From contig NZ_NFHP01000006.1 of NCBI RefSeq assembly GCF_002159335.1, positions 1 to 64,000 on the forward strand: DNA of 64,000 bases, in the 5' to 3' direction. The stretch's first letter is position 1. Each line of letters begins with the position of its first letter. Below the pieces are notes generated by a model. That model did not search any database. It saw only the letters and a list, made by a program, of their open reading frames with translations, and was not told where the DNA came from. The DNA comes from Collinsella sp. An7 (GTDB lineage: Bacteria; Actinomycetota; Coriobacteriia; Coriobacteriales; Coriobacteriaceae). A program made the position numbers and the translations under genes. This document shows, piece after piece, positions 34,734 to 38,923 of the stretch.

Positions 34734-35019
34734 GGCGCGCCTTTCTTTTATATATATAAGTTCTAAAAACCAATGATAGTAATAAGTCGGTTAATGGTGG
34801 GGATTACTTGCGTTTGCCCAGCTGGGGCATCAAAAGTTTTTCGACCGGGCGCTGTTGAGAACCGGGTTGGTTTTCCACGGGAGCGCTCGGTGGAAAACTT
34901 TTCCCCAAGAGCATATCGGTTTTCCACGGTTTGTTCCCCGCCTTTCCTCGCGCTTTCCACCGGCCTGTCCCTGTTCTGTCGTGCGGCCGGGGCCAGCCGC
35001 TTTGCATCGTTTCGCCGCG
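34734..35019. other. oriC: Probable chromosomal origin oriC (dnaA-dnaN gap)
   Basis: An AT-rich tract next to dnaN (34745-34792, containing TATATATATAAG) is a candidate unwinding element. DnaA-box-like sites cluster beside it: TTTTCCACG at 34871 and 34920, GGTGGAAAA at 34889 (inverted) and CTTTCCACC at 34953. TTTTCCACT at 36947, at the dnaA start, is a further site. Transcription diverges around this zone: everything from 38.4 kb down to 26 kb runs leftward and from 38.7 kb rightward, as expected around an origin. Confidence 0.75.
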
Positions 35020-36954
35020 TTACGACCGCAGAATGATCTTGTTGCGCAGCTGCTGCAGGTCGTCCACAAAGCTGCGGTCCTCCTTCATCCGCTTCTCGAT
35101 AACCTTGACGGAGTGCAGCACCGTGGTGTGGTCGCGCCCGCCAAAGGCTGCGCCCACCATGGAGGTCGTCATCTCGCACATGTCGAGCGTGAGGTAGACG
35201 GCCACGTGCCGGGCGTTTTTGATGGCGGCCTGCCGCCGCGGGCCGATGAGGTCGTTGTGGCTCACGCGGTAGAAGTCCTCGACCACCTTCTGCACCGTCT
35301 CGACGCTAATCTTCTTGTGCGCCGAGTCAAAGTACTCGTTGGCGATGCGGTCGATGTCGTCGCCGGTGAGGGTTTTGCCCTCCTGCTCGCGCTCAAACGA
35401 CTCGCCCGCGCAGCGCTCGCAGAAGCTCTCGAGCTCACGGATGTTGGTGCCCGAGACGCTTGCCATGTGCTTGAGGGCCTCCTCGGAGAGGTGACCGCCG
35501 CCTGTGCGGATGCTCGAGAGGAGCGAGCCCGCACCCGCCGTTGCGTCGGCTGACTCCTCGGCGGCGGGTAGGATGGTGTTCTCGTAGTAGTGCTTTAAGA
35601 TCATGAACTTCATCTCAAAGCCCGGCTCCGAGACCAAGCAGAGCATGCCGGCGTTAAAGCGGCTGGTCAGGCGTTCGTCCATGCCGAGGTTCTTGGGTGC
35701 GCGGTCCGAGGCGATGGCAACCTTCTTGTTGTTGCGGATGAACTCGTCCATCAGGCTAAAGAAGTTGTCGATCGAGGCCGTCTTGCCGATGATGTTCTGG
35801 ATATCGTCGATGATGAGCACGTCGGCGTCGTGGTAGTCGCGCAGGATCGCGCGGTGCGCGTCCTTTTGGAGGGCGACCTCGTTGATGAAGTCGTCGATGT
35901 AGGCCTGGCTGTTGGCGTATTTGACGCGGAGGTGCGGGCAGTTCTCGTTGAGGTAGTTCTTGATGGCGAGGAGCAGGTGCGTTTTGCCCAGGCCCGACTT
36001 GCCGTAGATAAAAAGCGAGCTGTAGCTGCCCGGGTCCTCCGCGGTTACGGCAAAGCGTACGGCTGAGTTGTAGGCGTGCTTGTTCTCGTCGCCGTAGACA
36101 AAGTTCTCAAAGGTAAATTTGGAGTTGAGGGGCACGGCGGGGTAGGACCCTGCGCCGCCCGTGCTGGTGGCGGCTGCTGTGGGCGCGCCGCCGGCCGCGA
36201 CGGCGGATTGGACCGCTGCGGGGTGGTGCACCGCTGGGGCTCCCTGGTTCATGGTCTGCATGAGACGCTTGAGGTCGCTCGCGCTGATGGTGTTGGTGAC
36301 GTTGATGCGCCCCTCGCCCGCGGCCTCGGCAGGGGTCTCGTCTTGGTTGGCGAGGCTGATGGCCGGGGTGGGGATGGTTGGGGTTACCGCCGGATGAGGT
36401 GCGGGGTGCGCGGCTGTTGCGGTTGCGATACCCGCGGCCTGCGCGGGTGCCGGCGATTCGTAGCTCGCGACGGGGACCTCCGAGCTCGCGGGGTTCATGG
36501 GCGGTGCGGGGGCGAAGGGTGCGTTCCCTGTTGCCGCGTTTGCGGCGGAAAACGGCGCCTGGGTTGAGCCGACTTGGGCAACGGTTACCCCAGAATCAGC
36601 TGAATCCTGCGGATTTGCTGCCATCTGGGGCACAACGGGTGTCTCAGGCACTGCGGCACCCGGTGAAGTTTCCCGTGAAACGTCACCGGGTGCCGCACCG
36701 GCCGCCGGCAGCGCCGTCACCACATTGAGCGCGATGGGCGCAAAGGCGATCTCCTCGAGGTAGCGCTCGATGGTCTCGCGCTGGCGCATGAGGGCGGCGC
36801 CGGCAAAGCGCGACGGCGCCTCGACGGTGAGGGTCGTGTCGGTGAGCTCGCGGCCGCGGGACTGCCGGAGCATGTTGATGAGGCGCGCGTCGACGCCGTC
36901 CCGCTCGCAGAACGAGATGGTGTCGTCGAGGATCATCTGCGCTTCGTTTTCCAC
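35020..36954 (-). CDS. dnaA: Chromosomal replication initiator DnaA
   Basis: A GTG start at 36954 (AAGGAGG 10 nt upstream) gives 644 residues, long for DnaA because of a linker of about 200 residues rich in Pro, Ala and Thr (about 80-285). Domain I covers about 1-75. The AAA+ core begins SKFTFENFVYGDENKHAYNSA, with Walker A YGKSGLGKTHLL near 322, Walker B VLIIDDIQN, and FSLMDEFIRNNKKVAIASDRAPK. Domain IV has the DnaA signature GGRDHTTVLHSVKVIE. It binds DnaA boxes and melts the origin. The linker DNA holds a parS-like site (36668) encoding VSRET. The GHKL gene ends 15 nt upstream, so the two form an operon. Confidence 0.97.
   Translation of the reverse strand: MENEAQMILDDTISFCERDGVDARLINMLRQSRGRELTDTTLTVEAPSRFAGAALMRQRETIERYLEEIAFAPIALNVVTALPAAGAAPGDVSRETSPGAAVPETPVVPQMAANPQDSADSGVTVAQVGSTQAPFSAANAATGNAPFAPAPPMNPASSEVPVASYESPAPAQAAGIATATAAHPAPHPAVTPTIPTPAISLANQDETPAEAAGEGRINVTNTISASDLKRLMQTMNQGAPAVHHPAAVQSAVAAGGAPTAAATSTGGAGSYPAVPLNSKFTFENFVYGDENKHAYNSAVRFAVTAEDPGSYSSLFIYGKSGLGKTHLLLAIKNYLNENCPHLRVKYANSQAYIDDFINEVALQKDAHRAILRDYHDADVLIIDDIQNIIGKTASIDNFFSLMDEFIRNNKKVAIASDRAPKNLGMDERLTSRFNAGMLCLVSEPGFEMKFMILKHYYENTILPAAEESADATAGAGSLLSSIRTGGGHLSEEALKHMASVSGTNIRELESFCERCAGESFEREQEGKTLTGDDIDRIANEYFDSAHKKISVETVQKVVEDFYRVSHNDLIGPRRQAAIKNARHVAVYLTLDMCEMTTSMVGAAFGGRDHTTVLHSVKVIEKRMKEDRSFVDDLQQLRNKIILRS
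36668..36681. promoter_or_regulatory. parS-like site inside dnaA
   Basis: GTTTCCCGTGAAAC differs from the 14-nt parS core GTTTCACGTGAAAC at one position. It lies in the variable linker of dnaA, where sequence is free to drift. Confidence 0.5.
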
Positions 36955-36969: not shown

Positions 36970-38442
36970 TTACGCGTGTGCGCGAGCCCAGTTGGCGCCG
37001 AGCTCGGTGAGATAGTATTTCTGCCCCTGCTTGACGGTGAACCCGCGCTTGCCCAGTGTAGCAAGCTCGCGCGACCAGGTGGGGCCCGACTGGCCGTAGG
37101 CCCCGGTGAGCTCCGAGGGGCCGGCGTGACCGTGTTCGAGCAGGTAGGAGAGGGCGAGCTTGCCGCGGTCGCTCACGATGAGCTCGCCTACGGGCTCTAG
37201 GGCACCCGGTGCCGCTTGCGGCGTTGCCGCAGGATAGCCGGGGTACGGCGCGGTTGTGGAAAACTCGCGGCCCTGCTGGGGAAAACCGGCGGGCGGCATG
37301 GGATATCCGGGGACCGGTGCCATGTCAGCGCCCGGGTAGCCCGGCGCAGCATAGGGTTGTGCGGGGTAGGAGCCCACTGTACCCGGCGCGGCCTCGGCGC
37401 CGGGCCAGGTGGCCGCGGGATAGGCTCCTGCGGCGTAGGCACCGGTACCATAGCCAGGATACGGGTAGGCTCCGTAGGGGTTTTGCGGGGGATATGCGCC
37501 TGCGTAGCCGGGCGGGTACGCGCCCGGTGCGAGGTACGCGGCCTCTACGCCCGAGCCCGCGCCCGCAGCCGGCGAGCCGGGCATCCCTGCCGCTATGCCG
37601 GCTGGCGTCATGGCCCCCGCGCCGTCAGGCACGCCCGCTCCCGCTCCCGCGGGCATCATCCCGGCCGCAGTTCCCGCCGACCCCGCGGCCATGCCGGCGG
37701 GAGCTCCTGCGCCCGGCATTTGCGCCGCTACGCGCGGGTCCTCCCCCGGACGCACGGCAGCGCCTCGACCGCCCGCGCGCTTGATCTCGGCCACGCGCGC
37801 GGCATCGGTGCTTACGGTAACCACCGTGCCGCCGCCCAGGTTGTTCTCTATAGAGATGGCCCCACCCGCCGCCTCAAGGTACTGTTGCACCATGGGCAGA
37901 CCGGAGCCCGTGCCGCGGATATAGCGCTTCATGTTGCGGTCGGCCGAGGTCACGCCAAACTCAAAGGCGCGCTCCTTGTCGCCGATGCCCGGGCCTTGGT
38001 CGGCAAAACGGACGGTGTTGCCGCCGTCCAGGATCGAGATGATGGGTTCCACAAAGTGCGCGTGGATAAAGTTCTCCACGATCTCGCGGATCACCATGAG
38101 CGAGAGCGAGCCGCCCTGCTCTTTCATAAGGCGGTAGACCGTGTTGGTGACTTCTTCGAGGTAGGGACGCACCGGCGCCGGGTCGATCACGATCACGTGC
38201 GGGGTCGAGAACATGTCGTCGTAGACCGAGATGCGCGTGGCGTATGCCGCAAGCTCGGCCTCTGCCTGCCCGGTTGCCGCATCCCCCGGCCGCACCGTCG
38301 TCTCGCCAGGTCGCGCTCCTGCCGGTTCTTCGGTGGCCTGCGACGCCACGGGGGCACTGCCCGCGCTCGGGGCGCCTGTAAGATGCGTGTTGTCTGGCGC
38401 CGGCGTGGTGGGGTCGACGAACGGGTAGAAGTCCTCAGCCAT
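36970..38442 (-). CDS. GHKL ATPase with C-terminal winged-helix domain, in operon with dnaA
   Basis: Start ATG at 38442 (MAEDFYPFVDP) behind AAAGGA, 490 residues. Residues 1-65 are a low-complexity region. A histidine-kinase-type ATPase fold follows with an N box (REIVENFIHAHF, 119-130), G1 (FADQGPGIG, 146-154) and G2 (RGTGSGLPMVQQYL, 176-189). There is no His-phosphoacceptor helix, sensor or receiver domain. A spacer of about 190 residues, rich in Gly, Ala, Pro and Tyr (AYPPQNPYGAYPYPGYG), leads to a C-terminal winged-helix-like domain (LALSYLLEHGHAGPSELTGA...YYLTELG, about 420-490). It ends 15 nt before dnaA. It may be an ATP-switched DNA-binding regulator of initiation or an anti-sigma-like protein. 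The function is not known to me. Confidence 0.75.
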   Translation of the reverse strand: MAEDFYPFVDPTTPAPDNTHLTGAPSAGSAPVASQATEEPAGARPGETTVRPGDAATGQAEAELAAYATRISVYDDMFSTPHVIVIDPAPVRPYLEEVTNTVYRLMKEQGGSLSLMVIREIVENFIHAHFVEPIISILDGGNTVRFADQGPGIGDKERAFEFGVTSADRNMKRYIRGTGSGLPMVQQYLEAAGGAISIENNLGGGTVVTVSTDAARVAEIKRAGGRGAAVRPGEDPRVAAQMPGAGAPAGMAAGSAGTAAGMMPAGAGAGVPDGAGAMTPAGIAAGMPGSPAAGAGSGVEAAYLAPGAYPPGYAGAYPPQNPYGAYPYPGYGTGAYAAGAYPAATWPGAEAAPGTVGSYPAQPYAAPGYPGADMAPVPGYPMPPAGFPQQGREFSTTAPYPGYPAATPQAAPGALEPVGELIVSDRGKLALSYLLEHGHAGPSELTGAYGQSGPTWSRELATLGKRGFTVKQGQKYYLTELGANWARAHA

Positions 38443-38512: not shown

Positions 38513-38596
38513 CTTTCCACAGCTTTTCAAAACTTGTTGAAAAGTGAAGAAAAGCGTTGAAAAGTTTTACACATACCTTGCACAACCTGTGGAAAA
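38513..38596. promoter_or_regulatory. DnaA-box pair and GTTGAAAAG repeats, GHKL-rpmH gap
   Basis: CTTTCCACA (38513-38521) and TGTGGAAAA (38588-38596) are facing DnaA-box-like sites. Between them GTTGAAAAG occurs at 38536 and 38556, with an inverted CTTTTCAAAAC at 38523. It could be the dnaA-operon control region or an upstream half of a bipartite origin. Confidence 0.55.
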
Positions 38597-38694
38597 CTTC
38601 AGAAAGGTTCTGAAAGATTCACCCTGCAGTGCTCAAAACTCAGAAAAGCCCTGCACGTTGCTGTGATGAGTTGTCGATAACCTGCGAAGATTTG

Positions 38695-38788: not shown

Positions 38789-38923
38789 ATGAAGCGTACC
38801 TATCAGCCTAACAAGCGCAAGCGCGCCAAGACCCACGGCTTCCGTGCCCGTATGGCCACCAAGGGCGGCCGCGCCGTTCTCGCCCGTCGTCGCGCCAAGG
38901 GTCGCAAGCGCCTCACCGTCTAG
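38789..38923 (+). CDS. rpmH: 50S ribosomal protein L34
   Basis: 44 codons from the ATG at 38789, with GGAGG 8 nt upstream. The sequence [20 protein letters not shown], then [20 protein letters not shown] and RLTV is textbook L34 of the large ribosomal subunit. It leads the rightward rpmH-rnpA-yidD-yidC operon. Confidence 0.98.

Follow-up and report, generated by a model that had tools for sequence, protein, structure and literature searches.

The window, which is the whole stretch of 64,000 nucleotides of Collinsella sp. An7 DNA that was analysed, contains a gene for a GHKL ATPase-like protein with a winged helix (36970..38442, minus strand) that leads the dnaA operon. Its open reading frame, supported by both the ORF list and orthologues, starts with an ATG at 38442, ends with a stop codon at 36970-36972, and encodes 490 amino acids. 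Fifteen nucleotides past this stop, on the same strand, begins dnaA (35020..36954), with a GTG at 36954, and the coordinates confirm this spacing as it was originally reported. On the other side lies rpmH (38789..38923, plus strand), which is divergent from the GHKL gene. The original prediction had treated rpmH, the GHKL gene and dnaA as one series; the same-strand adjacency of the latter two holds, but rpmH does not belong to the operon, as it is transcribed in the opposite direction and separated from the GHKL gene by a 346-bp intergenic region with a cluster of DnaA boxes. A chance ORF or overlapping frame was also considered and is excluded by the conservation of the gene in 155 related loci.

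The DnaA-box cluster between the GHKL gene and rpmH contains five box-like sites (38513..38680), located in the operon promoter region and in what would be the upstream part of oriC. A second cluster is found between dnaA and dnaN (34871..34928). With clusters on either side, the GHKL gene and dnaA lie within an apparently bipartite origin region. GC skew, calculated in 2-kb steps, did not clearly place the origin. Across 130 relatives, the rpmH-GHKL interval, bounded by automatically picked start codons, contains 476 DnaA-box-like sites compared to 27.6 expected from mononucleotide shuffles, in a count where close relatives are not independent. Standing at the head of the operon, the GHKL gene is presumably transcribed together with dnaA, starting in a promoter region rich in DnaA boxes, and this arrangement suggests that DnaA probably also regulates the GHKL gene. 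No phylum-wide operator other than DnaA boxes was found in the GHKL-rpmH intergenic regions across clades, and the recurrent words in Coriobacteriia resemble SD or rpmH-leader sequences. In a group of 21 loci within L154-L195 (taken as Rubrobacter), overlapping words of this intergenic region join to TTCGGATATACT, which may serve as a promoter or as an operator specific to this clade; its core word is found in 18 of the 21 loci.

The protein is composed of an ATP-binding domain, a long spacer and a C-terminal winged helix. Together with the strands and helix at its N-terminal side, the GHKL ATP-binding domain occupies residues 69-212 (37807..38238, minus strand), as delimited by Pfam, alignment and AlphaFold2. 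It features an N box (IREIVENFIHA), a G1 box (DQGPGI) and a G2 box (RGTGSGLP), and residues 117-213 match the Pfam family HATPase_c above its cut-off (E=1.1e-10). In the AlphaFold2 model, a strand-strand-helix segment precedes the N box. The N, G1 and G2 boxes in a Bergerat fold, which define the GHKL superfamily, are therefore present in sequence and in predicted fold. HATPase_c was also detected in 30 of 30 diverse members of the family, while no match to HisKA or any other phosphoacceptor family was found by Pfam in these members or in the window protein, in agreement with the initial description of the three boxes without a phosphoacceptor helix. The E...N..H motif occurs in 154 of 155 relatives. 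In the 30 diverse members, the Glu four residues before the N-box Asn (N-4) and the Asn itself are invariant, and the His, the G1 Asp and Gly and the glycines of G2 vary little or not at all. In the window protein, the N-4 Glu is E120 and the Asn is N124. As its ATP-site motifs are intact, the domain is expected to bind ATP. In GyrB, MutL and SpoIIAB, a Glu at the N-4 position serves as the catalytic base; its presence here makes hydrolysis or Ser/Thr phosphotransfer plausible by analogy.

The spacer (residues 232-417; 37192..37749, minus strand) is rich in Tyr, Pro, Gly and Ala and is disordered in the AlphaFold2 model, with pLDDT mostly below 50, which fits the earlier estimate of about 190 residues. 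Among relatives, the linker between the GHKL domain and the winged helix varies from about 12 to 306 amino acids, and such wide variation is expected of a tether. The winged helix occupies residues 425-490 (36973..37170, minus strand) and is supported by Pfam, AlphaFold2 and the relatives. Residues 431-489 match the winged-helix family PF25213 at 1.7e-5, which is under the curated cut-off. The C-terminus, described initially as winged-helix-like, was modelled by AlphaFold2 as a winged helix at residues 425-488, with the order H-H-H-E-E-H and pLDDT of 94-98, and the predicted structure thus contains the three helices and two-stranded wing typical of the fold. Most of the 30 diverse members match Pfam winged-helix families (HTH_IclR, TrmB, MarR and ArsR), and a profile detects the winged helix in 153 of 153 intact proteins, 30 of which formed its training set. 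The model of a 279-residue homologue that lacks the long spacer (L065) contains the same two domains, with a winged helix pLDDT of about 97. The modelled fold suggests that this C-terminal domain binds DNA.

The spacer-coding DNA also contains two DnaA-box-like sites, TTTTCCACA and TTTTCCCCA, which are 22 bp apart (37255..37285, minus strand). Paired boxes with exactly this distance occur in a subclade of Collinsella and relatives (L011, L012, L013, L036, L063 and L024), where their positions relative to the GHKL stop are about -310 and -288, and they encode the sole conserved motif of the spacer (FPQ..EFST in the window protein). In 53 GHKL genes of the close set there are 144 boxes compared to 51.7 in synonymous-codon shuffles, where again close relatives are not independent.

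The best sequence and fold matches of the protein are the catalytic domains of histidine kinases such as CpxA and HK853, with which it shares the GHKL fold and the N, G1 and G2 boxes. Unlike CpxA and HK853, however, the window protein has no DHp, sensor or membrane part, ends in a winged helix, and is encoded in the dnaA operon. Sensor histidine kinase identity was rejected on the absence of a DHp domain with its phosphoacceptor His, and autonomous histidine kinase activity is not plausible for the same reason. It could instead supply only the catalytic part of a histidine kinase and act in trans on a DHp or response-regulator protein encoded elsewhere, as its top fold matches might suggest. 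This is highly improbable, since no response-regulator or DHp gene is conserved at the locus to supply what the protein itself does not have, and the Foldseek matches span the catalytic domain only (query TM about 0.3). Among the best 50 Foldseek matches in the PDB, only histidine-kinase-type catalytic domains were found, none of which spans both domains.

Like SpoIIAB and RsbW, the protein features a small soluble GHKL domain placed after a strand and helix, and the N-4 Glu is common to the window protein and SpoIIAB. These likenesses raise the possibility of a Ser/Thr protein kinase of the SpoIIAB, RsbW or CapK type, whose partner might be DnaA or another replication protein and whose winged helix would only recruit the kinase to DNA. 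The strand-strand-helix-N-box layout together with the N-4 Glu, as in anti-sigma kinases, points in this direction, and the anti-sigma F factor structures 1th8 and 1l0o are among the profile matches. A precedent for a GHKL kinase with an HTH in DNA-linked signalling is given by CapK, an HTH-STAS-GHKL kinase activated by ssDNA that features an N-terminal HTH and STAS and acts with CapS, a STAS-wHTH repressor, the two being located before immune operons (PMC13373217). CapK and CapS are the nearest functional analogue found, as they combine GHKL and HTH in regulation tied to the state of DNA. Nevertheless, the window protein differs from CapK in that it has no STAS domain, its winged helix is C-terminal, and its neighbour is dnaA instead of CapS. 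It differs from SpoIIAB and RsbW in its winged helix and in a locus without a STAS antagonist or sigma gene. Pfam found no STAS or AlbA_2 match in the window protein or the 30 diverse members, the ORFs listed around dnaA include no STAS or sigma gene, and both STAS matches of the genome are located on other contigs. This also weakens the anti-sigma-type switch that was at first offered as an alternative, and a partner-switch anti-sigma system was rejected for lack of a STAS or sigma gene at the locus. Moreover, no substrate candidate was identified except the neighbour DnaA. A Ser/Thr kinase is therefore considered unlikely. Elsewhere in the same genome, outside the window, a 251-aa open frame (G000:C14:236401-237102) contains STAS and GHKL domains and resembles VapK/CapK-type kinases.

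Regulators of the COG2865 type also contain a GHKL domain (HATPase) and an HTH in one protein, with an N-terminal AlbA_2 domain. The likeness is limited to this combination, as the GHKL-winged-helix protein has no AlbA_2 match and a different genomic context. Overall, the protein clearly combines a GHKL domain and a winged helix, and the features tested for histidine kinases, anti-sigma kinases, CapK and COG2865 were not found in it.

The linkage of the gene to dnaA is ancient. Among 297 searched genomes of Actinomycetota, about 110 clear relatives were found, and 155 loci (56 close and 99 distant) were compared. Of the 56 close loci, 54 have dnaA directly downstream on the same strand, as do 88 of the 99 distant ones, which amounts to 142 of the 142 loci where the next gene is visible; in none is the GHKL gene located away from dnaA. 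At the remaining 13 loci, either the contig or chromosome ends soon past the gene, after 6-371 nt for distant loci, or the sequence is masked (L057). The neighbourhood conservation that had been proposed as a check is thus observed for dnaA, and relatives are not found mainly elsewhere. At least 22 families of the phylum carry the gene, by a tally of family labels in genomes with examined loci, and in a sample of the class Coriobacteriia it is found in 221 of 250 genomes (209 of 223 good genomes). The GHKL gene and dnaA commonly overlap or lie 0-20 nt apart, which is consistent with translational coupling of the two genes.

The full layout, yidC- rpmH- GHKL+ dnaA+ dnaN+, is conserved in 107 of 155 loci, and contig ends or a missed rpmH account for most of the others. 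Unrelated neighbours therefore share part of the linkage, and the protein could be an ordinary one-component transcription regulator with targets unrelated to replication, held in position by a frozen origin-proximal gene order. Rearranged loci argue against this. In three Eggerthellaceae loci (L064 from an Adlercreutzia MAG, L106 and L111), the order is dnaN- GHKL+ dnaA+ rpmH+ yidC+, so that the flanks have changed while the GHKL-dnaA pair is kept, and the DnaA-box cluster remains upstream of the GHKL gene. L106 and L111 belong to the same genus, and the three inversions are not necessarily independent events. In addition, extra sequence parts dnaN from dnaA in L178 and L181, whereas the GHKL gene stays attached to dnaA. 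These inversions and displacements indicate that the boxes, the GHKL gene and dnaA behave as a unit. An ordinary regulator would also have to be single-copy, with no dnaA-independent copy among the sampled genomes. This explanation is accordingly rated somewhat less likely still than a Ser/Thr kinase. Two observations favour a role linked to replication: the gene is located between the oriC boxes and dnaA, and it has been inverted jointly with dnaA.

Despite this conservation, the gene is not universally essential. In phylum members that lack a close relative, 30 dnaA loci were examined and none has a GHKL-winged-helix ORF upstream of dnaA; the sole weak match among them (L196) is a regulator of another type on the opposite strand. 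In 40 genomes without a close relative, profile matches are mainly to the GHKL part, and most lie in long ORFs, which is the pattern that generic histidine kinases would give. Of 12 Coriobacteriia genomes without the gene that were re-examined, 5 have no dnaA match at the cut-off used and 1 has dnaA at a contig edge. The other 6 have dnaA, with no GHKL or winged-helix ORF in the flanking sequence, which indicates that real losses occur. In G500 (L235) and G432 (L236), dnaA has no upstream GHKL gene while other sampled members of the genus retain it; judged by this distribution, the two are recent losses, usable as natural knock-outs. Absence from other lineages, together with the losses in Coriobacteriia, means that initiation is possible without the gene.

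Over the same loci, the GHKL domain is conserved to the same degree as DnaA, with mean identities of 0.48 and 0.47. GHKL distances correlate with those of DnaN (r=0.83) and YidC (r=0.74), and on this basis the gene appears to be vertically inherited. The correlation with DnaA distances is weak (r=0.40) and gives no special co-evolution signal; compared to the value of 0.83 for DnaN, it may reflect unusual DnaA evolution in part of the locus set. GHKL linker length and the distance to the DnaA Walker A motif increase jointly (Spearman 0.76 in 114 loci, 0.44 in L011-L066), which is largely a clade effect, as both neighbours have long low-complexity linkers in Coriobacteriaceae.

The reading that we favour, with a probability slightly above even, is that dnaA and the origin have a dedicated regulator in the GHKL-winged-helix protein, which would bind DNA under the control of ATP. 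In this mechanism, the GHKL domain would bind ATP, and the conserved N-4 Glu would support its hydrolysis. Nucleotide binding would then alter the conformation of the protein or dimerise it, and the flexibly tethered winged helix would bind DNA at the origin or at its own operon promoter, the site of the DnaA-box cluster. Finally, DnaA synthesis, and possibly DnaA assembly at oriC, would be tuned to the state of the cell. The inferred parts of this proposal are ATP binding, its control over DNA binding, the choice of oriC or the operon promoter as target, and an effect on dnaA expression or on initiation.

DNA-binding regulators of oriC and dnaA are a kind already known. MtrA, CtrA and Spo0A are kinase-controlled winged-helix regulators that act at oriC or dnaA, and they are response regulators with receiver domains. 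As a putative DNA-binding regulator linked in the genome to oriC and dnaA, the window protein would resemble them, and it differs from them in the direct fusion of an ATPase domain to the winged helix, in a gene encoded together with dnaA. No description of this architecture in such a role, or of this GHKL-winged-helix gene, was found in the open-access literature. A bolder version is doubtful. In it, the protein would be an ancient actinobacterial initiation factor that works directly at oriC, beside DnaA; as a GHKL ATPase equipped with DNA-binding arms, it would use its ATP cycle to assemble, remodel or license the DnaA-oriC complex. If true, it would constitute a class of initiation protein without earlier description.

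Usually, dnaA comes first after the origin. In this phylum, many lineages, including gut Coriobacteriia, nevertheless keep an extra gene between the origin DnaA boxes and dnaA. If this gene does control initiation, it would be a missing component of replication control, in which an ATP-sensing domain is tied directly to DnaA supply or origin firing. In these bacteria, for which no study of initiation control was found, the GHKL gene offers a concrete and testable entry point to the subject.
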